IMG/VR virus record: IMGVR_UViG_3300025687_000008
Span: 1-45,089 of that record
Length of the DNA: 45,089 nucleotides
Strand: one strand, 5' to 3'
Source: a virus
Shown here: in pieces, positions 10,542 through 43,203 of the stretch
Numbering within the stretch: position 1 is the first letter of the stretch
How the letters are laid out: the number at the start of each line of letters is the position of its first letter
The notes under the pieces: generated by a model
Seen by the model: only the letters and a program-made list of their open reading frames with translations
What the model was told of the DNA's origin: nothing
The model's database searches: none
Translations under genes and position numbers: made by a program

Positions 10542-10883
10542 CTACTCTTGCACACCTAAGGCTTCTGGCTCGTATTGCGTGAGGACGCAAACGTCAGCGC
10601 CTTGGCGGAGGGCAGTGCCAACGATGTAGGCGAACTGGTTTGGGGCGTCGTCGGACTCCTCGATCTGGTACTCCTCCACCTCGTAGGTCATGCCCTTGCG
10701 ATACCAGGAGACCCGGATCACGGCGAGCAGCTCGTAGGGGATGTCACCGACGTTGTACCCCAGGACAGGCTTCCTGGGGCGTTTCGGCTGGGGCGGTTCC
10801 GGCTTCACTGGATCTCTCCAAAACACCCACGCGGCAACCCGCATGAGCCCTAAGAAAAAGTTAGGCGGGGTGAACTGGCCCAT
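10542..10883 (-). CDS. Hypothetical protein with hydrophobic N-terminus (113 aa)
   Basis: ATG shares one base with the primase-helicase stop (TGATG). Residues about 8-25 (NFFLGLMRVAAWVFW) are hydrophobic and could be a membrane or membrane-surface helix, followed by a Pro/Lys-rich linker (PEPPQPKRPRKP) and a folded acidic C-terminal domain. Family not recognised. Confidence 0.65.
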   Translation of the reverse strand: MGQFTPPNFFLGLMRVAAWVFWRDPVKPEPPQPKRPRKPVLGYNVGDIPYELLAVIRVSWYRKGMTYEVEEYQIEESDDAPNQFAYIVGTALRQGADVCVLTQYEPEALGVQE

Positions 10884-13300
10884 CAGTCCCACATCCGTGC
10901 GGCTTCCTGCATCAGCTGGTCCAACTCGGCCTGAGACCTTTCCTCACGCGCGTGGGGATATGTCCCAGAGGTGTCCCATTGACCAGATCCCTTGGTATCA
11001 CGGGGTTTCAAAGTGGGACAGGCCTGTTTTTCAGGGTCAGGTTGTCCCACATTCGATTTAAGTGGGACAACTTCCTGAATTTCGGGCTGCTGTCCCACTT
11101 TGGATTCGTTGGTATCACAGGGTTTTTCCTTAGTGGGACAGGTATTTCCTACCTCTCCCCGCGAGGGAGAGAGAACAGCTTGATAGACCTTGCTGGCACT
11201 ACCGCGCTTTCCATCGGCTTTGCGCTCCTCCATCACGTGGATCAGCCCACGTTTTTCCAAGCGTTGGAGCGCCTTCCTGATTCCGGCGACACTTCCTCCG
11301 CAAATCGGATCAGAGTTGAGTTCATCACGGGTTTTGCCGGCTGGGTAGACGACACGAAGGCGCTGGAGCACCCGATCAATGACGCCTGACGGGGTTGTCT
11401 CGGTCGGATCGACCTCGGGTGTCCAATCCGCCAACGTGAAGCTCAGATCGGCTTCTTGGCGCAGCATCAAGCTGGTGCCACCACGACCAGAGCGCGATTT
11501 TTCAATGGTGATGATTCGGGCATTAGCTCCTGTCTGCTCCAACTGCTTGTCACTTGGACGCCGAAGGCTCCAGGTTTCGTCAACAGCATCCCGAATCGCA
11601 CTGGTGCCCCTAAAACCGCCGGTTTTGTTGGCGTGGTGAATGATCAGGATCGTGGTGGCCGGGAATAGCACCCCGTTATTACGGGTCAGCCAGTAGAGAG
11701 GGGTAGCGAAATCGGACTTGTTCTCGTCGAACGCCCGACCGCCAGAGCAGCCGATCAGCGAGTCGATCACCACCAGCTTGGGGCGCACCCGGTCCATGAG
11801 CTTTTGGAAGCGTGCATAGGACTGGAGCGTCCAATCGGTACGCAACGTCACCGGAGCGTCCGCCGGCATTTCAATCTCCAGCAGCTGTTCCTGCATTTGC
11901 ACCAACGGTTGGTCGCCGTTTAGTAACAGCACCGGCCCCTGCTGCACTGGAACGTGCTGGCCGCGAATCACAAAGGGCGCACCCGTCGCAATGTGCTTCG
12001 CAAGAGTCCAAGCCGCCATGGACTTGCCATCACCACCAGCGCCGTAGATCAGGACGACTGCGGGGTTGGGAAGGAGATCAGGAATCAAGTAGCTGCGCTC
12101 AAAGTCCTGCTGGAGCAGCTCCTTCACCGTCATCGTCTCAGATTGAGACTCATATTGGACCTGATCGACATACATCTTCTCCAACTCAAAGGCGTCGCGC
12201 ATCTTTGCCTTGTACGCGATCTTGTGCAGCTCGTATTTCTGCTCTGCCGGATTTTCAAGCTGGAGCGCCTCACGTGTCGCCAGGATGATTTCGGAGAAGC
12301 GGGGAAGATGCTCTTGACCGGCATCGGCCTCCAGCTGCATAACGACCTTCCGCAGGTCTTCTGCGAGCCACATGCGACCAGGCATCTGCTGGTCCGCCAT
12401 CCAGAAGAGCGTCCCGAGACTGACTGGCCCTTTGCGAAAGGACTTCCAGACCTCATCACAGGGATTGCCTTCAGACCATTCCTGTGAAAATTCGGGATCT
12501 TCTGCAGACCATGCGGACCACAGCGTTAGTCCTAGGTCAGTCGGCAACTCCGAGTGGATCGCCATCCCCACCTTGACCCAATGGTCCCGGCTGCCAGCGC
12601 CCTGCCCAGGGATGACCTTCAGCGCCGACTGGATGATTTCGGCAACTTCAGCTGGGTCTCGATCCGAGAAATCCAGCGCCTTGCGGTTCTTGATGAAACC
12701 ACCGTCCTGGATCTCCTTACCGGCGTGATCACGCATCTCCGCCAGCAACCACTCAGGGGCGTCAGGAATCGCCTCCAAGTCGCCTTCAAAGCCGTAGTGA
12801 CCTTCTGGTGCCTTCCCATCACTGGAACCCGGATAAGCGCCGTAGATGACGCCTTGACGGCCCCACAGCACCTCGTAACCAGCGCCGGTATCCGACAACC
12901 CAAAACCTTTTACCGAGCCCCACAACGCCTCAGGAACGCGGAAGAGGTACTTCGCCGCATTGGCCTTGGTCGAAGTAATGACTGGAGCACCCTCCAGCGA
13001 CTCACCCCACTTTTTCTTGAGACGACTGAGATTCCGATCCACGTCGAGAATCACGAGTCCCATGCTGCGACCGCCGGTGAACACACCGACCGCCTGGAAC
13101 ACATTCGGCTTGCGCTCGATCTGAAGTGCCACATCAGACGGCGCCATCACCTGATGGTGGCTGCGCTCTAGCGGGGTCTTGCCCTTCGAGATTTTCCCGG
13201 ACTGGATCGCCTGATCCTTGGCGTAGATCGGTGCATACGCCATCCCCACAGGCAGCTGGCGCACAAAAGCCAGCAGATCCTGCGTCTTACTTTGCGACAT
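10883..13300 (-). CDS. Primase-helicase (prim-pol, PriCT, RepA-like ATPase)
   Basis: 805 residues. Residues about 15-190 fit the bifunctional primase/polymerase fold with the metal-binding LDVD (85-88). Residues about 220-305 fit a PriCT domain (HWVKVGMAIHSEL ... LWSAWSAEDPEF). Residues about 395-620 are a RecA/RepA-like ATPase with Walker A GAGGDGKS (420-427), Walker B LVVIDS (509-514) and a HH pair at 555-556. Residues about 635-710 look like a winged helix. A low-complexity tail with repeated CPT-KP-DT and VGQ motifs follows. It should unwind and prime DNA for the polymerase. The tail coding region carries iteron-like repeats. Confidence 0.9.
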   Translation of the reverse strand: MSQSKTQDLLAFVRQLPVGMAYAPIYAKDQAIQSGKISKGKTPLERSHHQVMAPSDVALQIERKPNVFQAVGVFTGGRSMGLVILDVDRNLSRLKKKWGESLEGAPVITSTKANAAKYLFRVPEALWGSVKGFGLSDTGAGYEVLWGRQGVIYGAYPGSSDGKAPEGHYGFEGDLEAIPDAPEWLLAEMRDHAGKEIQDGGFIKNRKALDFSDRDPAEVAEIIQSALKVIPGQGAGSRDHWVKVGMAIHSELPTDLGLTLWSAWSAEDPEFSQEWSEGNPCDEVWKSFRKGPVSLGTLFWMADQQMPGRMWLAEDLRKVVMQLEADAGQEHLPRFSEIILATREALQLENPAEQKYELHKIAYKAKMRDAFELEKMYVDQVQYESQSETMTVKELLQQDFERSYLIPDLLPNPAVVLIYGAGGDGKSMAAWTLAKHIATGAPFVIRGQHVPVQQGPVLLLNGDQPLVQMQEQLLEIEMPADAPVTLRTDWTLQSYARFQKLMDRVRPKLVVIDSLIGCSGGRAFDENKSDFATPLYWLTRNNGVLFPATTILIIHHANKTGGFRGTSAIRDAVDETWSLRRPSDKQLEQTGANARIITIEKSRSGRGGTSLMLRQEADLSFTLADWTPEVDPTETTPSGVIDRVLQRLRVVYPAGKTRDELNSDPICGGSVAGIRKALQRLEKRGLIHVMEERKADGKRGSASKVYQAVLSPSRGEVGNTCPTKEKPCDTNESKVGQQPEIQEVVPLKSNVGQPDPEKQACPTLKPRDTKGSGQWDTSGTYPHAREERSQAELDQLMQEAARMWD
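10961..11140. repeat. Iteron-like cluster of TGTCCCA / TGGGACA, candidate origin
   Basis: Seven copies of a heptamer in both orientations: TGTCCCA at 10961, 10972, 11043 and 11091; TGGGACA at 11014, 11063 and 11134. Two lie in a perfect 10-bp inverted repeat (GTTGTCCCAC 11041-11050, GTGGGACAAC 11062-11071) with an 11-base AT-rich spacer. A longer unit starting TTGGTATCAC occurs at 10992 and 11109, each time before a TGGGACAGG. The cluster sits in the coding region for the low-complexity tail of the primase-helicase, reminiscent of lambda, where ori iterons lie within gene O. The origin role is inference. Confidence 0.55.
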
Positions 13301-28955: not shown

Positions 28956-31900
28956 GTGGCTTACAGAGCCGATATTGAAATCGCAGTACGCGGCGCTCAA
29001 GAACTCAAGCGTCTTCAAAACCAAATTAAAACTACAGGAGATGCAATAGATTCGCTTAACTCAGGTTTTGCGGGTGTCGCTAATTTATTACCTAAAAGTT
29101 TAAACAACTTAAAAAGCGTTGTCGCAGAAGCAGCAACTAACTTCAATAAAGTTGTTTTAGGTACCGAAGAAGCGGTAACGGCCGCTAAAGACTACGTTAA
29201 GGCTACGAGAGAATTAAACGCCGGTCTACAGGAACGCCTGCGGCTTATCCGCAATATCGAAGCCGCCGAAACAGCCGCGCAGCGTCAAATAATTCCAACA
29301 ACTAATGCCGGCTACGGGCAGCAGATGCCTGCTTTACCTCCTGCATTTGTACGCAGTAGAGAAATTCAACAAAGTTGGACAACATTTTTTAATGAGGCAG
29401 CTGACCTTGCTACAGAACTCAATACCTCTACAGCGGCTAAAGCACTAAACCTAAAGCAGAGCTGGAATACTTTTTTTACAGATGCTGCAGAACTTGCTAC
29501 AGAGTTAAAAACTTCTACAGCAGCTAGAGCACTAAACCTAAAGCAGAGCTGGAATACTTTTTTTACAGATGCTGCAGAACTTGCTACAGAGTTAAAAACT
29601 TCTACAGCAGCTAGAGCACTAAACCTAAAGCAGAGCTGGTCCGCAGCACTAAACGAATTAGAAGACATTGCGCTCACTTTACGGGCGCAAGCCGCAAATG
29701 CTGCTAGCCGGGCACGTTTACGTCAAGCAGAAACACTGTCTGCGTATCAGCAGGCTACTCGGCCTCAACCTGAAAATTTGGGCTATGGCGGTACTGCCCT
29801 AGCGTTACGTCCAGCTGGATTTACCGATCAAGACGTACGCATTAAAAACTTATTAGACGATCAAGCCAAAGGCATTCGTATAAACGCAGAGCTAGAAAGA
29901 CGTTTAAGTGTTATTCAAAATAATGCCGATTTGGCAGCCATACAAAAAGAACTTAGTGCTGAATTAGACGCTATTGAGCTTATTGCAGCAAAACGTAAAC
30001 GAGAGGGTGATGCGTGGTGGGCGGAACAAGAGAGGCGTTTAAAGGCGCAACCAGAAATAACCACAGGCACGACTGCTGGCGCAGGACTTAGAGGAAGGGC
30101 TGGCGGTGCAATTAGCAGTGCGCTAATTGGCGGTGGTTTCCCGTTACTTTTTGGACAAGGACCGGCCGCAGCCGCCGGCGGTGCTCTTGGCGGTCTAGCC
30201 GGGGGGTTACTTGGCGGAGGATTTGGTTTTGCACTGTCCATCGCCGGTACAGCGATAGGCGACTTTATCGCACAAACAGACAAACTTAGCGTTAGTTTGT
30301 CGGGGCTTAACGCTACGCTGTTCTCTACAAGTTCTGCTTTTATAACTACAGCTGGTGATATTAGTGAGTTAGCTAAAAATCTGCGGATAACTAAAGATGA
30401 AGCTATAGAGTTAATATCCACTTTTAGTCAATTTAATACAGGTACTGCACGTGAAGCATTAGCAAGAGGTTTTGGCGCTGTTGGTGGTGCACAAACCTTT
30501 GAAGCGATCGCCAAAGCAGGTATCGGAGAAAAAGAAGCTTTAGACGCTATTTTTAGTCTTCGCAAACAAATAGGCAATGAAGCGGCAGAACAACTGGCAC
30601 TTCAGTTACGAGCAGTAGGAGCAACAGAGACACAAGCCGCACTACTGAAAATTGTCAGTGAGCGGAACATTGACATTCTTGTCGCCCAAAGTAAAACAGT
30701 CCAGTTTGCAGATAGGTTACTTAGTACATGGGAAAATATCGTAGCTGCGGTAGCAAGTTCTGTTTCGTTAGCTGCACGTTTTATCCAAAAAATGCAAGAG
30801 GGCAGTTTAATTAAACTACCGTTTTTAGACCGCATCGAAAAGGTTTTGGGCAGGGTAGTCGGACGAACCCCAGAACAAATCGCAGGCCAACGCGGCGCAG
30901 CATTAGAACAGCAGTTACGCAAAGATTTAAACGATATTCGTGCTGCTTTGCGGCAAGAAACAAGCGCCCAAGCTACTCAAGCAGCTATTGGCGAGTCTCT
31001 AAGACCACAGAGAAAAGGCAAGTCTGCCGCCGAACGTGAGGCCGAACGACTTGCAGAAAAGATAGCAAAACAAAAAGACGAAGCCCTTAAAGCTTTGGCC
31101 GTTGAAACAGGTAGGTTGCAAGTGGCCGAAACTGCCGATCCTCTGCAACAAAAAATTACCCAAGCTATAGTAAAACAGTTTGATATACAAAGACAGTACG
31201 CGGCTAAAATTAAAGAATCTCTAAGTGCAGAAGCAACCCTAAACTATCAACTAGCCGAACGCAAAGCCCTACAAGCAAACGCGCTAGCCTTAGAGGCAGA
31301 GCTAAACGCAGAAGTAGATAAAGTTACTGATTCGCTTTCTAGGTTAGTCGCAGAAGCTGCTAACCGACTGGAGCTTGAGAACAGATACCAAGAATTACTG
31401 GATCAAGGGATCAATCCTGAACTAGCAAAAGAATTTGCGCAACTCGAACTTACCGCAGAAAAACAGCGTGAAACGCTTACATTGCGTCTTGCAGAACTTG
31501 AGGCTGCGCGAAGTAAATTATCTGCTGAATCTGAAGTCGCTAAAGCCCTAGAAAGACAAATTTCTAGTATTAAGGAAATACTTGCTTTACAAGGTAAGTC
31601 GGTGGACAAAGCTAAGCAAGATACCGAAGAACAACAAAAGAAAGATAAGGATAGAAAGGATAAAATCCAACAGGCAAAAGACCAAGCAGAACTTGTTGAA
31701 CAGCAGATTGCGGCCATAGGCTCCAGTCTTGGTGATGTATTGACGGGAGCATTAGATAATGTAATTAACAAAACAAAAGATTGGAACCAATTTTTAAGTG
31801 ATGCGCTGATGTCTATAGGTAAAGTTCTTATGATGGCAGGTCTAAATATGCTCGCAGGTACAGACGGAGAAGGTGTGTTGTCATTTCTTGGTTTTGGAAG

Positions 31901-32255
31901 CGGTTTTCGTAAGCGAGCTGCTGGCGGTCCTGTTACCGGGGGTTCCCCGTATTTGGTTGGTGAACGCGGTCCCGAGTTATTTGTACCTGGCACCGGCGGT
32001 AGTGTCGTTCCAGCCAACGACCTTCGTGCTGCAATGGGCGCTGCACCGGGTAGCTCCGGTGGTTCCCCCGTGCTTAACATGAGCTTTGAATCCACCAACA
32101 TTGGCGGTGTGGAGTACGTCAGCCGCGATCAACTGGAGCAGGCAATGGCAGCCACTCGTCGTCAAGCTGCCAATGATGGCGCCAAACGCGGTATGTCCAT
32201 GACCTTGGATCGCCTGCAGCAATCCCCACAAACCCGTAGGAGGGTTGGCATCTAA
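28956..32255 (+). CDS. Tail tape measure protein
   Basis: 1099 residues, GTG start. Largely helical: N-terminal coiled coils, a 29-residue tandem repeat (residues about 137-223), a Gly/Ala-rich hydrophobic segment (residues about 380-435, including FGFALSIAGTAIGDFI), long Lys/Glu/Gln coiled coils (residues about 690-920), and a C-terminal domain with GGPVTGGSPYLVGERGPELF, a signature of many tape measures. It sets tail length and probably aids DNA passage. Codons are AT-rich until about 31910 and then return to the GC-rich style of neighbouring genes, suggesting a mosaic joint. Confidence 0.93.
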   Translation: MAYRADIEIAVRGAQELKRLQNQIKTTGDAIDSLNSGFAGVANLLPKSLNNLKSVVAEAATNFNKVVLGTEEAVTAAKDYVKATRELNAGLQERLRLIRNIEAAETAAQRQIIPTTNAGYGQQMPALPPAFVRSREIQQSWTTFFNEAADLATELNTSTAAKALNLKQSWNTFFTDAAELATELKTSTAARALNLKQSWNTFFTDAAELATELKTSTAARALNLKQSWSAALNELEDIALTLRAQAANAASRARLRQAETLSAYQQATRPQPENLGYGGTALALRPAGFTDQDVRIKNLLDDQAKGIRINAELERRLSVIQNNADLAAIQKELSAELDAIELIAAKRKREGDAWWAEQERRLKAQPEITTGTTAGAGLRGRAGGAISSALIGGGFPLLFGQGPAAAAGGALGGLAGGLLGGGFGFALSIAGTAIGDFIAQTDKLSVSLSGLNATLFSTSSAFITTAGDISELAKNLRITKDEAIELISTFSQFNTGTAREALARGFGAVGGAQTFEAIAKAGIGEKEALDAIFSLRKQIGNEAAEQLALQLRAVGATETQAALLKIVSERNIDILVAQSKTVQFADRLLSTWENIVAAVASSVSLAARFIQKMQEGSLIKLPFLDRIEKVLGRVVGRTPEQIAGQRGAALEQQLRKDLNDIRAALRQETSAQATQAAIGESLRPQRKGKSAAEREAERLAEKIAKQKDEALKALAVETGRLQVAETADPLQQKITQAIVKQFDIQRQYAAKIKESLSAEATLNYQLAERKALQANALALEAELNAEVDKVTDSLSRLVAEAANRLELENRYQELLDQGINPELAKEFAQLELTAEKQRETLTLRLAELEAARSKLSAESEVAKALERQISSIKEILALQGKSVDKAKQDTEEQQKKDKDRKDKIQQAKDQAELVEQQIAAIGSSLGDVLTGALDNVINKTKDWNQFLSDALMSIGKVLMMAGLNMLAGTDGEGVLSFLGFGSGFRKRAAGGPVTGGSPYLVGERGPELFVPGTGGSVVPANDLRAAMGAAPGSSGGSPVLNMSFESTNIGGVEYVSRDQLEQAMAATRRQAANDGAKRGMSMTLDRLQQSPQTRRRVGI
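29451..29624 (+). repeat. 87-bp perfect tandem duplication in the tape measure gene
   Basis: Two adjacent identical 87-base copies (29451-29537 and 29538-29624), each coding 29 residues starting LKQSWNTFFTDAAELATELK. A third, diverged copy precedes them (from about 29364) and a partial one follows. Frame is kept, so each copy only changes tail length. Confidence 0.95.
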
Positions 32256-32638
32256 TGGCTACGTTCCCAGCACTAAAGCCAACCTCCCGCAATTTCAAAC
32301 CCGGCGATTTCCCATCCAAAACGTACCGGGCTCTTTCGGGTGCCATCGTCAAACGCAGCTTCGGCAACCGTGCCACCGGCTACGAACTGGAACTGGAATT
32401 TGCAAATATCAGCAGTAGTGTTCTGGATCAAATCTTGGATCACTACCTAGGACAAAAAGGTACGCTGACAAGTTTCGCGCTACCTACATCACTTTTTTCT
32501 GGATATAGCACTGCAGTAGGCAATGCTATCCGCATACCGTCTGGTATTGAATGGTTTTACGCTGCCGCACCAGATGTACAAAGCGTCATCAAGGGGCTTA
32601 GTACAGTACGCATCCGCTTTATTGGAGAGCTTGCATAA
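32255..32638 (+). CDS. Minor tail protein (distal tail, gpM-like position)
   Basis: 127 residues, TAATG overlap with the tape measure gene. It has FPALKPTSRNFKPGDFPSKT and GYELELEFANISSSVLDQIL, a pattern I recall from cyanophage minor tail proteins placed directly after the tape measure. Beta-rich. Probably the start of the tail tip. Confidence 0.65.
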   Translation: MATFPALKPTSRNFKPGDFPSKTYRALSGAIVKRSFGNRATGYELELEFANISSSVLDQILDHYLGQKGTLTSFALPTSLFSGYSTAVGNAIRIPSGIEWFYAAAPDVQSVIKGLSTVRIRFIGELA

Positions 32639-33105
32639 TGGCTGCTGTAATTCGAGTCGCCCAATTTTTCTTTCTAGTAGACAAAAACGACAACCGTTAC
32701 GCATTTCAAAACTATTTTGTAAACAGCAACAAAAAGATCGGCCGCAGGTCGTACACGTTTGCGCCCTTTCGTGCTGAAGGCACTGTCTCGAACTTAACCG
32801 GAGACAACGCCTTGTTACAGGTGCTTTTTCCGGCGGAAGATTTTTCAATCGCACTAGCCGAACAGGCAGACGGCAACCGGCTTACGCGCTTAACGCTGAC
32901 GACACAGTGGCTAAATGCGAATGAAGAGGTAGTGCGTTCCTACGAAGAGCGCTATGTAGGCATTGGAGCCGGTATCTCAGATACCACGCTGGAACTACGC
33001 TTCCGCTCAGCTATGGATAGCGTTGGCGCCAGATTTCCCGGTCAGACCATGACCCGTCGCAATGTTGGCCCACTGCCGACTAGCTCGCAGATTTCGCTCC
33101 AGTGA
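32638..33105 (+). CDS. Minor tail protein (gpL-like position)
   Basis: 155 residues, TAATG overlap. Beta-rich, with VSNLTGDNALLQVLFPAEDF and LTRLTLTTQWLNANEEVV. No Cys, so the iron-sulphur cluster of lambda gpL is absent. The call is by order between the gpM-like and NlpC-like genes. Confidence 0.6.
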   Translation: MAAVIRVAQFFFLVDKNDNRYAFQNYFVNSNKKIGRRSYTFAPFRAEGTVSNLTGDNALLQVLFPAEDFSIALAEQADGNRLTRLTLTTQWLNANEEVVRSYEERYVGIGAGISDTTLELRFRSAMDSVGARFPGQTMTRRNVGPLPTSSQISLQ

Positions 33106-33491
33106 TTGACACCAACGAGTTCATCGGATTGACCCGAGCCTGGGGCGCATTACCCGGAGACGGAAGCGGTCAGATCGACTGTTGCGCCCTTGCCGCTGAA
33201 ATGCACAAGCGGCTTGGCTACTGGGATTACGGACCAGAACTGCGTCAAATTTTTGCCGAGTATGACGATGACACTCTGCCGCCCAAGTTCATCGCCAAGT
33301 GGCTGCTAAAAAACGGAACACGCCTCCAAGAGCCAGAGCCTCATGCCGTGGTGCTGTTACCTAGTCCGGGGGTTGGCGCACTCGGTACAGTATTGGAAGA
33401 TAACACTGTTCTGTTTATCGGTCCAGGCGGTAAGGTTATCCGCGCCGCACTACCGACAGACGACGGCTGGTACTTCAGGCTGAACAAATGA
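33102..33491 (+). CDS. NlpC/P60-like tail tip protein (gpK-like), possibly inactive
   Basis: 129 residues, GTG in GTGA overlap. GQIDCCALAAEMHKRLG fits the DCxxL nucleophile region of NlpC/P60 peptidases (Cys28 or Cys29). Where the catalytic His would be expected the sequence reads ALGTVLEDNTVLFIGPGGKV, with no His; the only late His is in PEPHAVVLL. It may be a structural relic rather than an active peptidase. Family members help tail tips open the wall. Confidence 0.6.
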   Translation: MIDTNEFIGLTRAWGALPGDGSGQIDCCALAAEMHKRLGYWDYGPELRQIFAEYDDDTLPPKFIAKWLLKNGTRLQEPEPHAVVLLPSPGVGALGTVLEDNTVLFIGPGGKVIRAALPTDDGWYFRLNK

Positions 33492-36400
33492 CCCGCAAGC
33501 TACTGCCGTATGAGCACCAACTGATTGATGCACTGGGCATCACCAAGGAAGAGTATTTAGATTTTGTTGCCAAAACACCTGTTTACGAAGACCCCAAAGA
33601 GGGAACTGGTTTTGATATTCGCAATGACGCGGGAACAGTAGCGATTGTTTTAACCATTGTCGGAATTTTGTTTCAGGTGGCGGCGGCATTGCTCGCTCCA
33701 CGTCCAGAACTTCCTGATACAAAAGGCGCAGCTCGCAGTCGTGATCAGCGATTTGCACCACGCTTCGGTTTTAACGGCGTACAAGAACTTGCAAACTACG
33801 GCGATCCTATCCCGCTGGTTTATACAAACACCGCCGACAATAGCCAAGGTGGCGTGCGCGTTAATACCGCTCTTCTTTGGAGCGCAGTGCTCAGTTTTGG
33901 CGGCAACCAGTTTATGCAGCTCATGCTGGCGATTGGTGCTGGACGCATTGAACAAATCGACATTGAACGCACAGCACTAGGACAACTGCCGCTGCGTGAT
34001 TTTGTAGAAAGCAACATCTGGGCGTATTGGTCGCCTAACGGCAATACACACTACAACCAGCTTGCTAATGGCAACGACTTCAAGGATCCAACCCGCTCTG
34101 GATCTGTCAAGCGTCCAACTGCCCGTCTAAACACACTCGCTGGAACCACTGACGAGTTTGGTTTTAGTCAAGCCTATGCACCAACGACAAGCGTAGCCTG
34201 TGGTGTTACTGCTGTAATTCCAATCAATGTAGACACGCTACGCCTCAACCAAAACGGTAGGAGAAGGCAAAATAGCGTGGATACAAATCTATCTGGAGCC
34301 GGTAATTTTTGGCGTAGTGACGGTTCGCGTCCATTGGTGCCGGTTGGAACTGAATTTACCCTCAAAATTCCACGCGCTCGTGGAGAATCAGACTTGCCTG
34401 GCGACCAAGAAACAGCTAAGGCTCGACGCGGGGAGGCGTCTGCCATCTTTTCGGGAGCACGTTTTAAGATTGGCTCAGTAATTCTTCGAGTCGTAAGTAT
34501 TTCTGGGTCCGAGATAGACGACGCTCCAATGTTTGCGGTATTGCAATGCGAGCGAAAAGGTAAATTTCCTAGTATCCGCTATGACGTGCGCCACTGGTTA
34601 GATGTATCCGCAAGTATAAGCAATCAACAAGCAGAAATAAATAACAACAATGCTGAAATAGTCGCTCTCAACAGCGATAAGAGAATTCTTGAATCTGTCG
34701 CCACGTCAAATGCTTACGTTTTTGGGTATATCTATCAAGGCAATTTTAGTGATGTTATCAATAGGTATGAGCGTTTTCAGCAAGGTAGTACCTTTGGTAA
34801 AGGTGACGCAAAACGCGCAATTAGCTATATTGACGAGCGCGTCGCAACACTTGAAAATCAGAACAGTGCGCTAGCGGATAAAATTAACCGCGTCCAAACA
34901 TTAGGCGTGTACGAGCGTCAGGCTTTTTACTTGAAAGCCATGGCTCATATTGAAGAAGCAAACTATGCGTCTACAACATCGTGCCACGCGCTAGATATAG
35001 CACTAAAAATCAAGGCTTTTCGACGCCTTAGCGGAAGGTCCGAAGTGTATGGAGCGGATCAAATTGAGTACGACTATCGCAGTTCGCAGAATGGCTATCA
35101 ACCCCGAACAGTAATGTTCCGCCTGTACTGGCGTTTTGCTGGTGCTTCAAACTATACCGACACTCCATACATATTTTGCGTGCGCGGAACAAATGAGCAG
35201 GATATTTTTACTTACCTAAAGCTGATCCATGCTAATGCGGCGTTTACTCGCCCGGAGGAAGCACGCTTTTGGGAAATCAAACTTGAACCTGTCCTAGAGC
35301 CCAAATCCGAACCAGGCGTCACTCGTTACTGCTACTTAAACCCCAACGGCACTGTCCGCCGCGTCAATGCAGGCGACAAAGAAGTTTTTATTCAATTCAA
35401 CGGCAACATTTATAATTTTACCGATAAACTGCCCATCAATAAAACAGCTGATGACATCAAAGAGTGGGATCTGTTTAACTACGATGTAACCTCCCAAAGC
35501 CAATTCTCTTTTGAGCAAGGGCCTGAAATAACAATTACAGCAGTGAATGAGCAGTTGCTGCAGAGCTGGACCACCTATGGCCCATCCTTGTATAACGGTA
35601 TTAGCACCTTAGGTCTCCACGTTTTTGCTTCTACAACCACCGAGAGTCTTCGCAGCGTTAGCGCCTGGGTGACTAAAGGCAAAGAAGTTCGGCGGTTGTC
35701 GCTGAACCCAGATTCATACAACAGCACTTCTGAGATCAGTGCTTTAGTTAATAGCCGTCCTGATGGATCCTCCAGTTATGCGTCCGACATTTTCTTAGAT
35801 ACTGTTTTGGATCCCGAAAACGGCATCGGTCAGTACGCCGATATTCATTCTGTAGATGTGCCGCAGTTAGCCACGACAAAACGGTTTTGTCGTAAGAACA
35901 AGCTGTATATGGACGGCGTTATTGCCGACCAACGTAGCTGGCGCGAGTTCTGGGCGCAAACCGCACCGTTCAGTTTGCTGGAGTTTGCCAAGATTGGTGG
36001 CTGTGACACGCTTGTGCCTGGCGTCCCCTATGACAGATCTACTGGCGCTATAGATCCGATGCTTGCAATTAGTGCCTTATTTACATCGGGGAATATCCTT
36101 GAAGACTCATACAAAGAAGAATTTATTGATTACGGCGCCAGTGTTCAAGACACTATCGTTACCGCTGTTTTTCGTGACACAACCAAGAACGATATTTTCC
36201 CGATCAATTCCAGCGTGGAAGTGCGGCTGAAAGACACAGATGCCGATGAAGCCATACTGGAAACCCTTGATGTATCGCAGTTTGTAACACGGCGAGAACA
36301 GGCAATTTTGCTAGCCAAATTTTTGTGTCTCAGTAAAAGGTATATTCGTCGTGCCATTGAATTTAGAACATTCCCCACAGACAGCCCTGTATTCCCTGGC

Positions 36401-36802
36401 GCTTACATTTATGTGGAAATAGGCATGAATCAGTGGAACAATATCTACAGCGGGCGGATCGAAGCTGGCGGAGCCCTTAATGCACCGCTCCCCAAACAGG
36501 TGCCGAATGGTACTTATACAGTCTTTGTGTATCGCGGCGGTCAAGGTACTAAGCAGTTCAGTAACGTCACTGTTTCTGGTGGTGTTGCTCCGGCCTTGAA
36601 AAGCTACGAAGATGCCCTGTTTGTACTGGGGCGGTCGGTCAAAAACAAACGTGTCTTTCGCGTTACTGAAGTCAGCATGGACGAAGAGGGCGAGACCACC
36701 ATCAAGGCTGTGGAACACCCCACTGATTCGGACGGACGCTCCCTGATCGCTAAGCGTTTGATTGGATCTGACGAGTTTTACGTCGATGGACGACTCGGCT
36801 AG
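33488..36802 (+). CDS. Tail tip attachment protein (gpJ-like)
   Basis: 1104 residues, ATGA overlap with the NlpC-like gene. Residues about 52-70 are hydrophobic (VAIVLTIVGILFQVAAALLA), as often seen where an I-like segment is fused to J-like proteins. Then comes a phage tail-hub region with NYGDPIPLVYTNTADNSQGG; the middle (residues about 375-480) holds a coiled coil; the last third contains a baseplate-hub fold and a C-terminal VFRVTEVSMDEEGETTIKAV strand typical of the J central domain. It should form the hub that carries the fibres and contacts the receptor. Confidence 0.85.
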   Translation: MTRKLLPYEHQLIDALGITKEEYLDFVAKTPVYEDPKEGTGFDIRNDAGTVAIVLTIVGILFQVAAALLAPRPELPDTKGAARSRDQRFAPRFGFNGVQELANYGDPIPLVYTNTADNSQGGVRVNTALLWSAVLSFGGNQFMQLMLAIGAGRIEQIDIERTALGQLPLRDFVESNIWAYWSPNGNTHYNQLANGNDFKDPTRSGSVKRPTARLNTLAGTTDEFGFSQAYAPTTSVACGVTAVIPINVDTLRLNQNGRRRQNSVDTNLSGAGNFWRSDGSRPLVPVGTEFTLKIPRARGESDLPGDQETAKARRGEASAIFSGARFKIGSVILRVVSISGSEIDDAPMFAVLQCERKGKFPSIRYDVRHWLDVSASISNQQAEINNNNAEIVALNSDKRILESVATSNAYVFGYIYQGNFSDVINRYERFQQGSTFGKGDAKRAISYIDERVATLENQNSALADKINRVQTLGVYERQAFYLKAMAHIEEANYASTTSCHALDIALKIKAFRRLSGRSEVYGADQIEYDYRSSQNGYQPRTVMFRLYWRFAGASNYTDTPYIFCVRGTNEQDIFTYLKLIHANAAFTRPEEARFWEIKLEPVLEPKSEPGVTRYCYLNPNGTVRRVNAGDKEVFIQFNGNIYNFTDKLPINKTADDIKEWDLFNYDVTSQSQFSFEQGPEITITAVNEQLLQSWTTYGPSLYNGISTLGLHVFASTTTESLRSVSAWVTKGKEVRRLSLNPDSYNSTSEISALVNSRPDGSSSYASDIFLDTVLDPENGIGQYADIHSVDVPQLATTKRFCRKNKLYMDGVIADQRSWREFWAQTAPFSLLEFAKIGGCDTLVPGVPYDRSTGAIDPMLAISALFTSGNILEDSYKEEFIDYGASVQDTIVTAVFRDTTKNDIFPINSSVEVRLKDTDADEAILETLDVSQFVTRREQAILLAKFLCLSKRYIRRAIEFRTFPTDSPVFPGAYIYVEIGMNQWNNIYSGRIEAGGALNAPLPKQVPNGTYTVFVYRGGQGTKQFSNVTVSGGVAPALKSYEDALFVLGRSVKNKRVFRVTEVSMDEEGETTIKAVEHPTDSDGRSLIAKRLIGSDEFYVDGRLG

Positions 36803-36831
36803 ACTTTTGCTAAACGCTTACAGGCTGTGAT

Positions 36832-37329
36832 ATGGGTTTCTACACCGGACGCACAGGCGCTCTTTATTTAAGAAGCTCGGATACCAGTGGCGGCGTAACA
36901 CCACTGGCCCAAGACAAGGCATTGAAGTTGCGCGATTGGTCGCTTGAAACCAACCTTGAGTTGCTGGAAATCACGACCGTTGATACCGCCGTTAAGAGCT
37001 ATACCCCCGGCGCTGTTAGCGCCACCGGCAGCGCCACTGTTTTGTACTACAGACGTGAAGGCACCACTTCAACCGAGCCCGGTGTGCAGTTTGATCAGTT
37101 TTTGAACAAAGTAATGAAAACCAGTACGGCTGGCGTAACGGAAGATGATCGAGTTACGATTGTGCTGCGTGCTGGCACACAACCCGGATCTGGAGTCGAT
37201 ATTAAAGATGATATTGCTTTCAACGCTTACCTTACAAACGCATCAATTTCCGTAAGCACTGGAGAGCTTACATCCGTGTCGCTGCAGTTCACTGTTGATG
37301 GTCCGTTCAGGGAATTGATTGACGCATGA
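36832..37329 (+). CDS. Tail tube-like protein, second copy (165 aa)
   Basis: Starts MGFYTGRTGALYLRSSDTSG. KLRDWSLETNLELLEITTVD, the SYTPG segment, ATVLYY and NASISVSTGELTSVSLQFTV follow the same order as the core of the main tail tube protein (WTFEITRTEID, SYVAG, TVYF, TSASLTI). A tube-like protein after the J-like gene may form part of the tip or a tail extension. Confidence 0.65.
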   Translation: MGFYTGRTGALYLRSSDTSGGVTPLAQDKALKLRDWSLETNLELLEITTVDTAVKSYTPGAVSATGSATVLYYRREGTTSTEPGVQFDQFLNKVMKTSTAGVTEDDRVTIVLRAGTQPGSGVDIKDDIAFNAYLTNASISVSTGELTSVSLQFTVDGPFRELIDA

Positions 37330-38198
37330 CGTATTTTTTAGGGCATTACGGCAAAGTCAAGCTGAAGCGCAAAAGCACACTGGCGTTTCGCACTGAGGTG
37401 TCGCCCGCAGATGTCAATACGACGCTTAATCGTTTTAGTTTTGACGGTTCGATTGAAAACCTGCTAACTGGCGATCAGCTTCGCATCGTCACTGACGACC
37501 CACGGGGACTGGATTTCCTTCCTACGTCCACATGGCCTGATGGGGGTGGTGCAACATTGAATGAAGTAGTTGCCTATTCAAATATCAACGAGATTGGCGG
37601 CATCCGGTTGTTCGAGTATTTTTCAGAAGCTGTTAATAACGACCGCACAAGGGAGTACCCGCTTGAGTCTTTTGCTGGCAACCCAATCCCAGTAGACGTA
37701 AGTGTTTATGGCAGCGTGGAGCGTGTACTGGGTGATGTAGCTGGCTTCACTTTTAACACTGATCGTGAGGCGTTGGACACAACAACGATGTCCGACCGTT
37801 TCAAAAGAATGTACTCTGCCGGACTAATTAGTGGTTCCGGTTCTATTGACTGTCTCTTTAATACCCAAAACAGCGGACTGACAGAAAATTCTCTGCTGAT
37901 GCTGCAGCTAATCAACCGCACCGAAATAGGTAGCGAGTTTAGCTGCTTTCTTCAGTTAGTTGAAAGCGGTAACTATCCCGGCACACAAGATGTGTATTAC
38001 GAGTTTGACGCGATGGTAACTCGCACTGGCGTGGAGGTACAACCGGATCAAGTCATCAACTGCGCGATTGACTTTGTTACCACTGGCGAAATTAGACTGC
38101 TGATCGGTGAACCGTCCGGCTACGTCCTTAAGGAAGACGACGACCGTATACAGTTGAATCAGAGCCTTGACTTCCTGCTAACGGAACTGACGGACTAA
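37326..38198 (+). CDS. Tail protein with a tube-like C-terminal domain (290 aa)
   Basis: ATGA overlap with the previous gene. The N-terminal 130 residues form an extra beta-rich domain (LTGDQLRIVTDDPRGLDFLP). From about residue 135 the sequence again follows the tube pattern: FTFNTDREALDTTTM, SGSGSIDCLFN and VNCAIDFVTTGE-like strands near the end. I read it as a third tube-fold relative. Exact role unknown. Confidence 0.6.
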   Translation: MTYFLGHYGKVKLKRKSTLAFRTEVSPADVNTTLNRFSFDGSIENLLTGDQLRIVTDDPRGLDFLPTSTWPDGGGATLNEVVAYSNINEIGGIRLFEYFSEAVNNDRTREYPLESFAGNPIPVDVSVYGSVERVLGDVAGFTFNTDREALDTTTMSDRFKRMYSAGLISGSGSIDCLFNTQNSGLTENSLLMLQLINRTEIGSEFSCFLQLVESGNYPGTQDVYYEFDAMVTRTGVEVQPDQVINCAIDFVTTGEIRLLIGEPSGYVLKEDDDRIQLNQSLDFLLTELTD

Positions 38199-38233
38199 AC
38201 TGCTAGAAGACTCGCCGTTCCTGGAGCTGACGT

Positions 38234-40123
38234 GTGGCTGACCAGCGGATAACCCAGCTAAACCAGCTTGCCGAGGCCGACGTAGCGGCTATCGACGTTT
38301 TGCCGATTGTAGATATTTCGGCAAGCGAGACCAAGAAGGTCACGGCCAAAGACCTGTTTGAAGCTGGCGCCACACTTGCTGATAACAGCAGCATCGACCT
38401 CGCCAAGCTCAATCAAAGTAGTACAACAAAGATTGGCACTACAGCGTTAGCCGACGATGCCGTAACAGCAGCAAAGCTGGCAGACGACAGCAGCATTGTT
38501 TACGACTCCACTGAACCTGTAGCCGATAATTTTGAAGGCCGTGGCTACGTCAACAGCACCAGCAAAAATCTCCAAGTTTGGGACGGTAGCGCATTTCAGC
38601 AAGTTGTAGCGCCTACCGCTGGTATTGAAGACGGCGCTGTAACGACCAACAAAATCGCTGACAACGCAGTTACCACAGTAAAAGTTGATGCTGCTGGTCT
38701 TGGTACTGCGGCGATAGCAGACGACGCTATTACTTCAACAAAAATTCTTGATGGCACCATTGCGTCTTCTAACTTTGCCCCTGGAGCAGTAGATACTACT
38801 GCTATTGCTGACGATGCTGTTATCACTGCAAAAATTGCAGATGGCAACGTCACAACCGACAGCCTCGCTGACGATGCTGTCACTGGCGCAAAGCTTGCTG
38901 ACGATTCCGCGACTGTCGTTGACACAACTAATCCGTCTGGATCTGGCGATTTTGTTGGTCAGCAGTGGATCAATGCAAACACGGGGCTCACTCAAATCTG
39001 GGATGGTACGGAATGGATTGATTCAAAAGCAGTTCAGACGATAACTTTTACAGACTCCACTCCAATTACATTTGCCGTTGCTTACCCCACTTCTACCAGT
39101 GCGGAAGTAACTACCACGCTTGATACGCAGGCTGCTGCGTCTGTATTTGCCGGTCCCATTTCTGGTGTTGATGCAGAGCCCAGCTTCCGTGCATTAGAGC
39201 CAACTGACCTTCCCATTGCCGAGGTCGGCACAGTTGGCGTTGTACAGCCTGGCACTGGACTTAATATTGACGGTGCTGGCACACTCAATCACCTTAACAG
39301 TGTTACCGCTGGCACCTATACAAAGGTAACTGTTGACGCGCAAGGTCACGTTACAACTGGTGATGTTATTGCTTCCGAGGACATTCCCGATCTTGATGCC
39401 AGCAAGATCACATCAGGAACTTTTGGCAGTGCTTTTCTGGCAGAAAACAGTGTTACCGCCGAACAGCTTGCTGATAATGGCATCGCTCAAGTAAGCCAAA
39501 CAGCTCCTGTACCGCAATTTTCTGGTCAATGGTGGGTAAACCCCAGCGACCGATCTACCTACATCTGGGTGGGTAGTGTTGCCGCCACGCTGGAAGAAAG
39601 TAATGGCTATTGGTTAAATCTCGGCTACGGCAATCTTCAAAACGAAAACCTGCGATTTGCTGGCACCTATAACGGCTCTACAAACCTGGTTGAAACAGTT
39701 ACGCAGTATTCAACACAGGCTGGTTTGGATTCTGGAGACACATTAAATGCACCTGCTGATAACAATAACGGGCTTTATTACATCGTTACTACGGCGGGTA
39801 CGGGAAGCGGTTTTGCCCCTGTAGGCAGTTTGGCTGCCGGAGATTGGATTGTTTCTTTGGGGCAAGGCTCCAACTGGGAACTGCTTGACTTCGCTTCTGT
39901 AGTGGCTGGCGTGTCGGATGCCGACGTTCTCGTTAATGGAGCGGCGCTTTCCCCTTCAGCCTCCTCTATTGCCACGCAAGAGGATTACAACGAGAACGTA
40001 TGGGGAAGAGTTCAGGTAGCAACATCTTCGGCGTACGGGATTGTTAGAGGATCAACTGAAGTAGTTGTAGCAAGTGGCACTGGCATTATGAGCATTGGAA
40101 TTATTGACGATGGCACCTATTGA
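38234..40123 (+). CDS. Repetitive tail fibre protein (629 aa)
   Basis: GTG start. Residues about 40-240 are built from imperfect ADDAVTxAKxAD repeats (also ADDAITSTKI, ADDAVITAKI), which should form a trimeric beta-structured shaft. Segments ending WDGSAFQQVV and WDGTEWIDSK mark repeated small folds. A C-terminal head follows and ends IIDDGTY. Probably a receptor-binding or shaft fibre. Confidence 0.8.
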   Translation: MADQRITQLNQLAEADVAAIDVLPIVDISASETKKVTAKDLFEAGATLADNSSIDLAKLNQSSTTKIGTTALADDAVTAAKLADDSSIVYDSTEPVADNFEGRGYVNSTSKNLQVWDGSAFQQVVAPTAGIEDGAVTTNKIADNAVTTVKVDAAGLGTAAIADDAITSTKILDGTIASSNFAPGAVDTTAIADDAVITAKIADGNVTTDSLADDAVTGAKLADDSATVVDTTNPSGSGDFVGQQWINANTGLTQIWDGTEWIDSKAVQTITFTDSTPITFAVAYPTSTSAEVTTTLDTQAAASVFAGPISGVDAEPSFRALEPTDLPIAEVGTVGVVQPGTGLNIDGAGTLNHLNSVTAGTYTKVTVDAQGHVTTGDVIASEDIPDLDASKITSGTFGSAFLAENSVTAEQLADNGIAQVSQTAPVPQFSGQWWVNPSDRSTYIWVGSVAATLEESNGYWLNLGYGNLQNENLRFAGTYNGSTNLVETVTQYSTQAGLDSGDTLNAPADNNNGLYYIVTTAGTGSGFAPVGSLAAGDWIVSLGQGSNWELLDFASVVAGVSDADVLVNGAALSPSASSIATQEDYNENVWGRVQVATSSAYGIVRGSTEVVVASGTGIMSIGIIDDGTY

Positions 40124-40125
40124 TC

Positions 40126-40293
40126 ATGCAGCGCACGCAAAGCTTAATCTATAGCGGCCCTGAAGTGCCTATTGGTGGAAATCCAGGCGAGGTACTTGTA
40201 AAAATACAAGGCAGTAATTACTACACTGCTTGGCGCGATTTGTCTTTTGTATTAGACCAATATGACGTAACGCTAGACGACGGCGAGTACTAA
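40126..40293 (+). CDS. Short fibre-linker protein (55 aa)
   Basis: Two bases after the fibre stop. It contains PIGGNPGEVLVKIQGSNYY and ends LDDGEY. The GGNPG-xxLxKxxxxNY block recurs in the 74-residue gene at 42351 (PVGGNPGNILLKQTNANYD), so both are related small fibre-associated proteins. Confidence 0.65.
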   Translation: MQRTQSLIYSGPEVPIGGNPGEVLVKIQGSNYYTAWRDLSFVLDQYDVTLDDGEY

Positions 40294-40296
40294 GTC

Positions 40297-40304
40297 GCTA
40301 CACT
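40297..40304 (+). promoter_or_regulatory. Possible -10 (GC TACACT)
   Basis: In the gap before the S74 fibre gene, 35 bases upstream of its ATG; same core as the promoter at 18687 but without TG. The gene itself has an AAGGAG ribosome site. Confidence 0.35.
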
Positions 40305-40339
40305 GAAGCCATAATCCCGTCCTCAAGGAGTTAAGGGAA

Positions 40340-41857
40340 ATGGCTTCCACCCATAAGAGCCTTCGTACTAGCACCGCCAACAAGCGCCCCACCACTGCCA
40401 TTGCTGACGGGCAGATTGCGCTTAACACCAATATCACCAGTCCCGGTCTGTTTTTTAAGGACAGCACTGGCGCGACGATCATCAAAGTTGGTCCGGTTCA
40501 TGTAGGCACAACTGCTCCCAACGCAAGTCCTGCAGGCAGCAGCGGCAATAGCACTGGTGAAGTTTGGCAGGATACGAGCCTGACCCCCAACGGCGTCAAG
40601 ATCTGGAACGGCAGCGCATGGGTGAACGTCACTCCCGCTGGTAGCACCACTGTTCAAGGTTTGCTGGAACTTGCCACCAACGCCGAAACGCAGACTGGCT
40701 CTGATACCGCTCGTGCTGTAACCCCCGCAAGTCTGCAGAGCAAGGTAAGCGATAGCACCAGTACCACCAGCTCAACAACTATTGCATCGAGCACGGCAGT
40801 TAAAAGTGCTTACGATCTCGCCAATGCAGCATTGCCTAAGTCTGGCGGCACGGTTACTGGCAACCTAGAAATTGGAACAACTGGTAGCCTTACTTTTGAG
40901 GGATCCACTGCTGATGGCTTTGAAACCACTCTTGCAGTAACAGATCCTACTGCTGACCGCACGATCACATTCCCCGATCAAACTGGCACTGTTTTATTGG
41001 GATCGGCTACAGCGTATATTGATAGCTCCAGCAGACTATTGCTTGGTACTTCTACAAGCATTTCAAGCTGGTCCGTTGCAGCAGTCGAAATAGTCGGAGA
41101 CACTACAAATAATGGCGCGCTAATCCTTGGAAGAAATGACACGTCAATTACTGATGGAAACGGAATTGGCGTAATTTCTTTTAGAGGTAATGATGCAAAC
41201 GGTACATATGAAGAGTGCGCAAAAATTGAAGCCCAAGCCGATGGTACTCATGGTGACGGAGACAAGCCAACTAGACTAGTTTTTTCTACTACTCCCACGG
41301 GATCTGGCACTCCATCGGAGCGAGTCAGAATTGACGATGCTGGAGATACATATATCGGCACCACTGTTTCGCCTACATCCTCTATTTCCGGCTTTTTATT
41401 TACGCAAACCGGCAGGCAAATTCAGTACAGCTCTACTGCCAGCTCTCTTATCAGGGTGTTTGAAGCAGGCGGCAACGCTGGTTATGCTCGCATCATGGGT
41501 GATGGCGACTTAGAAAATACCAATAATCGTTATACGGGTCTTTCCGACGTTAAATTAAAGCAGAACATCGAAGACGCTAGCTCGCAATGGGATGACATCA
41601 AGAACATCCGAGTCCGCAAATACGAACTAATTGCAAACCCCACCCGCAAGCAAATTGGTGTAATTGCCCAAGAGCTTGAGCAAGTAAGCCCTGGTCTTGT
41701 TATTGAGCGCGTTTACGACGAAGATACCGGAGAAACAGTCAAGTCGGTTGCCTACTCCGTTCTTTACATGAAGGCTGTCAAGGCTTTGCAGGAAGCGATG
41801 GAACGCATTGAAACCCTTGAGGCAAAAGTTGCCGCTCTTGAAGGAGGTGCAAGCTGA
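40340..41857 (+). CDS. Tail fibre with S74 intramolecular chaperone (505 aa)
   Basis: The N-terminal part (STHKSLRTSTANKRPTTAIA then GQIALN) is a common phage fibre start that attaches to the virion. The middle is beta-rich, with an AVTDPTADRTITFPDQTG block. From residue 402 a Peptidase S74 domain begins (SDVKLKQNI), followed by KQIGVIAQELEQVSP and VAYSVLYMKAVKALQEAMER and a final coiled coil. S74 domains trimerise the fibre and then cut themselves off at the Ser of the SD motif. Confidence 0.92.
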   Translation: MASTHKSLRTSTANKRPTTAIADGQIALNTNITSPGLFFKDSTGATIIKVGPVHVGTTAPNASPAGSSGNSTGEVWQDTSLTPNGVKIWNGSAWVNVTPAGSTTVQGLLELATNAETQTGSDTARAVTPASLQSKVSDSTSTTSSTTIASSTAVKSAYDLANAALPKSGGTVTGNLEIGTTGSLTFEGSTADGFETTLAVTDPTADRTITFPDQTGTVLLGSATAYIDSSSRLLLGTSTSISSWSVAAVEIVGDTTNNGALILGRNDTSITDGNGIGVISFRGNDANGTYEECAKIEAQADGTHGDGDKPTRLVFSTTPTGSGTPSERVRIDDAGDTYIGTTVSPTSSISGFLFTQTGRQIQYSSTASSLIRVFEAGGNAGYARIMGDGDLENTNNRYTGLSDVKLKQNIEDASSQWDDIKNIRVRKYELIANPTRKQIGVIAQELEQVSPGLVIERVYDEDTGETVKSVAYSVLYMKAVKALQEAMERIETLEAKVAALEGGAS

Positions 41858-41994
41858 TGGCAGTCAAAAGCAAAACCGCACTGGGGCGTGTTGAGCACAA
41901 AGCCGGACGACCCAAAACCACAAGGCAGGGTTACGGTCAGCACAGTCGCCCAGCACGTCGCGGCAAAAAAGCCCTGCGTGGACAGGGGCGCTAA
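41857..41994 (+). CDS. Tiny basic conserved cyanophage protein (45 aa)
   Basis: ATG overlaps the fibre stop (TGATG), with AAGGAGG 9 bases upstream. The sequence begins MAVKSKTALGRVEHKAGRPK and continues TTRQGYGQHSRPARRGKK. I recall close relatives from many cyanophages, T4-like and others. About 15 Lys/Arg in 45 residues. Function unknown. Confidence 0.8.
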   Translation: MAVKSKTALGRVEHKAGRPKTTRQGYGQHSRPARRGKKALRGQGR

Positions 41995-42015
41995 TCTGTA
42001 CCAAGGAGGTGCGTC

Positions 42016-42354
42016 ATGGCAATTTCACCCGGCACTTACAACATCAGCTTGCAGCGTCGGGCGGATTACGGTGTCACGCTTCAATTCAAAGACAGCAGTG
42101 GTACTGCGATCAATTTGACAGGTTGGACTGTTGAAGCGCAAGCGTGGAACCGAGGGCGGACCACAAAATACGCTGACTTTGCCGTTACCTACACCGACCG
42201 CGCGACTGGTACGGTTGCTATTGCGCTGACGGATGAACAAACTGCGTCATTCCCCAACGAGGCGTATTACGACGTATTGCTTACCAACGGTAGCGGTCTT
42301 AAAGAGTATTACTTAGAAGGCATCATTTACGTCAGCGAGGGCTACACGGCATGA
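42016..42354 (+). CDS. Baseplate/fibre adaptor-like protein (112 aa)
   Basis: Strong AAGGAGG ribosome site. A beta-sandwich pattern (YGVTLQFKDSSGTAINLTGW, then a DVLLTNGSGLKEYYLEG strand) resembles the BppU N-terminal family that links fibres to baseplates. Ends in ATGA overlap with the next gene. Confidence 0.65.
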   Translation: MAISPGTYNISLQRRADYGVTLQFKDSSGTAINLTGWTVEAQAWNRGRTTKYADFAVTYTDRATGTVAIALTDEQTASFPNEAYYDVLLTNGSGLKEYYLEGIIYVSEGYTA

Positions 42355-42575
42355 CAGCAGTCAACGTCAGTGCCGTTAGCAACACGGTTGTCGTCACGGA
42401 AAACGGCAGCAGCACTGTCGTTACGGTCATTACAGAAGGCCCGCAAGGTCCATCAGGTATTGCTGCCGGAGCATTGCCAGTAGGCGGTAATCCAGGCAAC
42501 ATTTTACTAAAGCAGACAAACGCTAACTACGACGCAGACTGGGTAGCTACACTGGATGGAGGAACCTTTAATTAG
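42351..42575 (+). CDS. Short fibre-linker protein with collagen-like patch (74 aa)
   Basis: Contains EGPQGPSG, a short collagen-like stretch, then PVGGNPGNILLKQTNANYD, matching the 55-residue protein at 40126. Ends LDGGTFN. Confidence 0.65.
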   Translation: MTAVNVSAVSNTVVVTENGSSTVVTVITEGPQGPSGIAAGALPVGGNPGNILLKQTNANYDADWVATLDGGTFN

Positions 42576-42577
42576 CT

Positions 42578-43033: not shown

Positions 43034-43071
43034 TCACCGTACCCGGCTAAATAGCCGACAGGGTTAGCCAC

Positions 43072-43203
43072 ATGGCACAAACAATCAAACTCAAGCGCAG
43101 CGCCGTTGCAGGCAAAGTGCCTACCACCAGTGATTTGGCGCTGGGTGAGGTGGGCACCGATTATCTTTCTAACACCAGCTCAATAAATGGAGGCAGTTTC
43201 TAA
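43072..43203 (+). CDS. Short fibre N-terminal fragment (43 aa)
   Basis: MAQTIKLKRSAVAGKVPTTS followed by DLALGE is the head of a common cyanophage fibre, where it usually continues for hundreds of residues. Here it ends after 43 residues at INGGSF. TAATG couples it to the next fibre gene. Either a reduced working linker or a recombination remnant. Confidence 0.6.
   Translation: MAQTIKLKRSAVAGKVPTTSDLALGEVGTDYLSNTSSINGGSF

Follow-up and report, generated by a model that had tools for sequence, protein, structure and literature searches.

An iteron array inside the 3′ end of a phage primase-helicase gene is a candidate replication origin, very probably read by the winged helix of the same protein

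The described replication systems closest to the one considered here come from satellites, mobile elements and phages. In the Staphylococcus aureus pathogenicity islands (SaPIs), the C-terminal domain of Rep reads short repeated sites (iterons) located directly downstream of rep, and the C-terminal domain of Cch2 from the staphylococcal cassette chromosome mec (SCCmec) binds AAGTG iterons directly behind cch2, a proposed origin (PMC7581432). Origins of the phage-inducible chromosomal islands (PICIs) always contain two iteron sets flanking an AT-rich region (PMC6092414). In phage lambda, the iterons lie in the middle of gene O, and the residues contributed by additional iterons are not believed to touch DNA (PMC7466680). 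According to PMC4234260, which cites Yeo et al. 2002, the P4 alpha protein joins primase, helicase and winged-helix origin-binding domain in one polypeptide. For the element PLE, whose RepA reads its ori, the nuclease Odn of phage ICP1 mimics the reader and is thought to drive change (PMC8263062). Here we analyse the IMG/VR virus record IMGVR_UViG_3300025687_000008, a stretch of 45,089 bases (the window), in which an array of TGTCCCA heptamers occupies the 3′ end of a gene encoding an 805-amino-acid primase-helicase with a C-terminal winged helix-turn-helix (wHTH) domain. The array is probably the replication origin of this phage family, embedded in the gene of a primase-helicase initiator that would recruit itself.

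TGTCCCA or its complement TGGGACA occurs seven times within 180 bp of the window (Table 1), including a perfect 10-bp inverted repeat (11041-11050 and 11062-11071) with an AT-rich spacer between its arms; all of these were located as a preliminary description of this DNA had claimed. The heptamer is not equally dense elsewhere, since only two further copies were found in the record (5709 and 19291), leaving seven of nine in the array. Shuffled sequences contained 5.66 heptamers per window, equivalent to ~0.02 expected in 180 bp against the 7 observed, and TGGGACA was the densest 7-mer in any 180 bp of the window (7 copies; the runner-up had 5). When the codons of the gene were shuffled synonymously so that the protein was preserved, the mean was 1.03 heptamers and the maximum 5, with 7 never reached in 20,000 trials. 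The array thus displays a feature of iteron-type replication origins, namely short repeated sites that are clustered and unique in the replicon. The copies occupy all three reading frames and both strands, and the peptides they encode differ by frame (CPT, VGQ, VP, WDT, GT). Because the heptamers are read in different frames as different peptides, the repeat belongs to the DNA and not to the protein. As the preliminary description had it, they lie in a low-complexity protein region, which is the 3′ end of the gene, coding for a tail predicted to be disordered.

Conservation in relatives supported a DNA-level constraint. Searching viral contigs with the protein yielded 520 relatives, the best 80 of which were used first; three further queries with diverged members brought the set to 130 distinct genes with a complete 3′ end. 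The array occupied an unchanged position in the first 80 relatives and in most of the 130 distinct genes. Sites were found through the five-letter core TGTCC, the constancy of which is therefore partly by construction, while the bases that follow it (CA, CC, A- or T-) switch in concert across the copies of a genome. Agreement between copies within a genome, compared with sites dealt among genomes, was 0.83 vs 0.56 at base 6, 0.70 vs 0.40 at base 7 and 0.77 vs 0.49 at base 9, and ranged over bases 6-10 from 0.61 to 0.83 vs 0.35 to 0.56. Individual genomes carried TGTCCCACTG, TGTCCCACCT, TGTCCCATTC, TGTCCCCCCT, TGTCCAGCTG or TGTCCTCTTT in nearly all or most of their copies, regardless of frame and strand. 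The synonymous sites, which the preliminary description had proposed to compare, behaved in the same way: relatives do not retain a protein repeat spelled in other codons, DNA words are kept where frames and amino acids differ, and given an identical residue, an identical codon was found with a frequency of 0.88 in iterons and 0.83 in the other tail, compared to 0.58 in the gene core (547 pairs). In the distant arrays of loci L375 and L377 (TTTTGACAAA/TTTGTCAAAA), the TGTCC core itself has changed, to TGTCA.

The bases that vary between genomes track a single residue of the helicase. Residue 675, the fifth residue of the predicted recognition helix, is R with CA in 50:0 cases and K with CC in 22:0 (Fisher 5.6e-19); the other pairings are G with T in 16 (G with AC in 3), Q with A in 7 and T with A in 3. 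In a test for coincident changes on a tree of residues 1-615 (123 genes, 243 branches; branch lengths ignored), residue 675 ranked first among ~700 residues for iteron base 6 (p=1.9e-10) and for base 8, and among the top three for base 7. Most of the other leading covarying residues are in the wing (692, 698-704), and K at residue 675 arises in ten separate tree groups. Since the tree test ignores branch lengths, it was repeated as distance-matched pairs, which are disjoint yet not fully independent: residue 675 differed in 95% of 38 motif-different pairs compared to 7% of 190 distance-matched same-motif pairs, and the next-best residue in 82% vs 52%. Natural swaps between close relatives followed the same pattern. 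In L077 and L270, whose cores are 97% identical, all iterons change from CA to CC along with R675K, and in L043 and L046, whose core is 99.3% identical, TGTCCC becomes TGTCCA together with a V-to-T substitution at the residue-678 position. As residue 675 tracks the iteron bases, the wHTH of the gene itself is very probably the reader of the sites. The preliminary description had left the binder open between the primase-helicase and the small helix-turn-helix (HTH) proteins, and the covariation points clearly to the former. If this reading of R675 is true, the window protein would prefer TGTCCCAC, and the K675 protein of L270 would prefer TGTCCCCC.

Reader and sites also appear to travel as a unit. 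Mapping the iteron class onto trees of the primase part, the helicase part and the wHTH required 46, 29 and 21 changes, respectively, against ~58 with shuffled labels; judged by these trees, the reader and its sites move together, apart from the primase end of the gene. Re-lettering all sites of an origin at once is a hard evolutionary step. With the origin written into the same gene, beside its reader, the linkage between the two would be secured; the adjacent pair would stay linked, and a new specificity could therefore pass between phages as one cassette. More tentatively, and with somewhat less than even confidence, we propose a widespread modular class of phage origins in which recognition helix and iterons form a self-contained cassette in one gene and a code (R675-CA, K675-CC, G675-T, Q/T675-A) re-letters all sites at once. 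Conflict with satellites or origin-targeting nucleases may drive this re-lettering, as proposed for PLE and Odn.

The layout of the array refines the preliminary description of it. Six of the seven sites form a symmetric set with spacings of 45-26-22-27-44, whereas the seventh (iteron 7) is an extra site 11 bp outside it. Among the relatives, 71 of 126 arrays showed mirror symmetry of positions and orientations within 2 bp, with layouts such as 45-16-34-16-45, 45-16-10-26-10-16-45, 45-16-80-15-44 and 46-26-35-27-46. Each half is rigid, and the length of the centre ranges from ~22 to >100 bp; this would be expected were every half to nucleate a single complex. A position profile over the outer pairs revealed a second conserved box (consensus CCCAGTGATACCAATGGATCTG), with one copy inside each outer iteron pair and the copies in direct orientation; that it is a priming site or a host-factor site are guesses. 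The clade L335-L351 has a separate layout, in which sets of several iterons, stepped by 10 bp, point towards one another.

Similar arrays accompany other replicative helicases. In a scan of other helicase loci selected for the word TGTCCCA, arrays of 5-12 copies were found at or beside the 3′ end of the helicase gene, and a control scan with a scrambled word gave at least 4 copies in 2/120 loci compared to 63/120 for TGTCCCA. They were associated with AAA_25 helicases, some with Prim-Pol or Toprim (L087, L120, L141, L452), with VapE-like proteins (L083, L101, L111, L161, L388), with DUF5906 (L102, L106, L112, L419) and with DUF927 (L404). Several are mirror-symmetric around an 80-110-bp centre, which in L111 is AT-rich by eye. 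The idea that TGTCCCA is common to all unrelated helicases had to be tempered, as the scan selected that word and cultured VapE-type elements use others. Marinobacter phage PS3 (MF959999; L629, 3062-3297) carries a dyad-symmetric GGTCACCCC array right behind its VapE-type primase gene, with gaps of 23-33-18-80-18-33-23, and is a cultured laboratory model for this kind of origin. The Escherichia coli plasmid pSCZE1 (L630, 3076-3358), 12.6 kb in length and typed non-mobilizable, has twelve TCCACCC/GGGTGGA sites (the TTCCACCC word) and a stretch that is AT-rich by eye behind a VapE-domain gene, an array that looks like a PICI-type origin. No comparable array was seen at the gene ends of S-CBS4, Vibrio phage 1.210.O and a Manatee Spring phage, the named phages whose AAA_25 helicases are nearest, or of the VapE-type Pseudomonas phages Haddon and vB_Pae_U5. 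A literature search for the word TGTCCCA gave unrelated papers only, among the matches listed. An array scan across bacterial genomes recovered mostly chromosomal repeat families of Microbacterium and Coriobacteriaceae with no nearby helicase and was not used as evidence. These TGTCCCAC repeat families, present on many contigs of Microbacterium and of a Coriobacteriaceae metagenome-assembled genome (L398, L402, L428, L437; L403, L408, L421, L462) with no helicase relative found near them, are as far as seen unrelated to origins.

We propose that the DNA coding for the floppy tail of the helicase very probably doubles as the landing site where the same helicase starts copying the genome. The winged helix encoded just upstream would bind the TGTCCCA(C) iterons. 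The sites are arranged as a mirrored pair of half-arrays, so the protein bound to each would assemble one helicase ring per direction, and two forks would depart from the centre of the array. Strand opening may be achieved by the helicase pair melting the duplex through ATP-driven shear, as PMC9894130 proposes for the T antigen of simian virus 40. The linker encoded by the array is predicted to be disordered and would make few demands on amino acids, so the DNA would be free to take the shape of an origin. What the sequences show is constraint at the level of the DNA, copies that change in concert, a single recognition-helix residue that covaries with them, a dyad arrangement and the behaviour of a cassette; from this we infer physical binding, melting, helicase loading and bidirectional initiation.

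Several observations weigh against an origin read by residue 675. This residue is an imperfect predictor: R accompanies TGTCCA in L046 and L048, and the motifs of a few distant members (L335-L353) are weak or of another kind. The AT-rich spacer noted in the preliminary description holds for the window, whose own 11-bp centre is 82% AT, but an AT-rich centre was not found when tested across the family, where the centre averages 45% AT and the gene end 42%. GC skew, examined as an origin marker, shows no switch at the array. Moreover, an autoregulatory or a partition role would predict the same covariation. Were the array an operator through which the helicase wHTH controls transcription of its own or downstream genes, with the origin elsewhere, the covariation would look identical; regulators often contain winged helices, and the folds nearest to this one belong mostly to transcription factors. 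We nevertheless consider an operator improbable, given that the array is located at the extreme 3′ end of a gene 2.4 kb long, persists though the sequence behind it is not shared (CTAACTTTTT is found in 47/130 relatives and not in 83/130), has a mirrored six- to eight-site layout with a variable centre that would be unusual for an operator, and resembles arrays that follow replicative helicase genes in many other elements. That the array serves partition in the manner of a centromere, or titrates the initiator to control copy number or timing without being the start site, seems slightly less probable still. Iteron arrays outside origins titrate initiators in plasmids and phage P4, and the second conserved box could bind another protein; on the other hand, this is the sole such array in the record, there is no separate origin cluster of the same iteron, and no partition genes were found among the scanned proteins, which covered part of the open reading frames (ORFs).

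It is very unlikely that a host protein or a small phage HTH protein binds the sites with the helicase wHTH uninvolved: the occurrence of TGTCCCA beside unrelated helicase classes could point to a shared host factor, but the bases switch with helicase residue 675 between near-identical phages, which a host factor would not track. We give almost no credence to the heptamers being a by-product of a repetitive peptide tail. The tail is of low complexity and the heptamer does encode brief peptides that recur, CPT and VGQ among them, yet the use of three frames on both strands with differing peptides, a count above any synonymous shuffle, and relatives that change all copies at the DNA level whatever the frame all contradict it, and together with codon conservation, this use of frames led us to reject a repeat at the protein level. 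A replication origin, as suggested in the preliminary description, is the best-supported reading of the cluster, and neither of the two outcomes named there as refuting it was obtained; origin activity itself is inferred from sequence, and position, layout and the company of replicative helicases favour it over autoregulation or partition. What began as a hunch is now a precise prediction of where a large uncultured phage family would start replication, which domain would read the start site and which amino acid would set its letters. With >100 natural before-and-after examples, some with 97-99% identical backbones, the joint change of initiator and origin becomes directly testable.

Table 1. 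Coordinates of the candidate origin, its sites and the surrounding gene (positions in the window)
Feature	Position	Strand	Details
Dyad-symmetric iteron array, candidate origin	10961..11140	.	Outer pairs 45 and 44 bp apart; inner spacings 26/22/27
Iteron 1	11134..11140	-	TGTCCCACTA on gene strand
Iteron 2	11091..11097	+	TGTCCCACTT
Iteron 3	11063..11069	-	TGTCCCACTT; one arm of central inverted repeat
Iteron 4	11043..11049	+	TGTCCCACAT; opposite arm of central inverted repeat
Iteron 5	11014..11020	-	TGTCCCACTT
Iteron 6	10972..10978	+	TGTCCCATTG
Iteron 7	10961..10967	+	TGTCCCAGAG; extra, outside the symmetric six
Second conserved box, inside outer pair	11103..11125	-	AAACCCTGTGATACCAACGAATC; direct repeat
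Second conserved box, copy in other outer pair	10986..11008	-	AAACCCCGTGATACCAAGGGATC; direct repeat
Primase-helicase-wHTH gene (805 amino acids)	10883..13300	-	ORF and translation, Pfam, PHROG, predicted structure
Domains of the 805-amino-acid protein			AEP-type primase N-terminus; PriCT_2 223-302; AAA_25 (RecA-like helicase) 388-561; winged helix ~637-708; disordered linker; C-terminal helix
Winged-helix domain, residues 637-708	11177..11392	-	Likely iteron reader; recognition helix 671-684 with R675; wing ~692-703
Arg675 codon	11276..11278	-	Putative specificity residue (R with TGTCC-CA, K with TGTCC-CC)
C-terminal helix, residues ~790-804	10886..10933	-	Confidently predicted, conserved, after disordered linker

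The record encodes a terminase, a portal, a family A DNA polymerase and a dCTP deaminase and is a tailed phage without a close cultured relative, its terminase being at most 46% and its polymerase ~27% identical to those of named phages. Pfam detected AAA_25 (1.5e-19) and PriCT_2 (1e-15) in the 805-amino-acid protein, while PHROGs assigned a DNA primase over residues 24-292 and a weak match to an O-like initiator over the wHTH and tail (E=0.0045). No solved structure was matched when searched by sequence with the helicase. The AlphaFold model of the winged helix consists of helices 640-650, 658-663 and 671-684 and strands 687-692 and 703-708, and a fold comparison of the C-terminal piece with the Protein Data Bank ranked winged-helix proteins highest, at modest E-values; the full-length model is of low confidence (predicted template modelling score 0.42). 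The linker at ~711-787, whose coding DNA holds the seven heptamers, is predicted to be disordered (predicted local distance difference test <50), and R788 and W804 near the C-terminal end are invariant. CTAACTTTTT (10859-10875) lies just past the stop codon on the gene strand, inside the next overlapping ORF. Searches for tRNA, tmRNA and Rfam families found none. From 29000 to 45089, the GC content is ~0.44-0.54, down from ~0.51-0.61, which suggests a mosaic genome.

Compared with the known systems, the window is one instance of a broad plan best known from SaPIs and PICIs. As in these islands, an initiator helicase with a C-terminal DNA-binding domain would read short iterons located at the 3′ end of the gene that encodes it or immediately beyond, and two symmetric iteron sets flank a centre. 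In contrast to them, the array is inside the coding sequence rather than behind the gene, the helicase is a RecA-like AAA_25 with PriCT_2, the sites in each half point both ways (+45-16+ / -16+45-), the centre across the family is not AT-rich, and the carrier is a tailed phage instead of a helper-dependent satellite; with packaging and capsid genes of its own, terminase and portal among them, it is not a PICI. SCCmec differs in that the Cch2 sites are intergenic, comprise only three direct iterons and belong to a D5-type helicase. In PLE, a RepA_N domain acts as the reader and repA is a locus distinct from ori; the present family has no known antagonist. The P4 alpha protein likewise holds primase, helicase and winged-helix origin-binding domain in one protein. 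The P4 origin sites are not known to lie within the alpha gene, and alpha combines a D5/SF3-class helicase with a Toprim-class primase. Lambda shares the placement of iterons inside the initiator gene, but has four iterons beside an AT-rich region in place of a mirrored array of 7-8-bp sites. Lambda O, not itself a helicase, has to recruit P and host DnaB, whereas the initiator in the window would itself be the PriCT_2/AAA_25 primase-helicase, and homology to O does not go beyond the weak PHROG match. The best explanation is that the origin in the window would work like that of a SaPI or PICI and is placed like the lambda ori.
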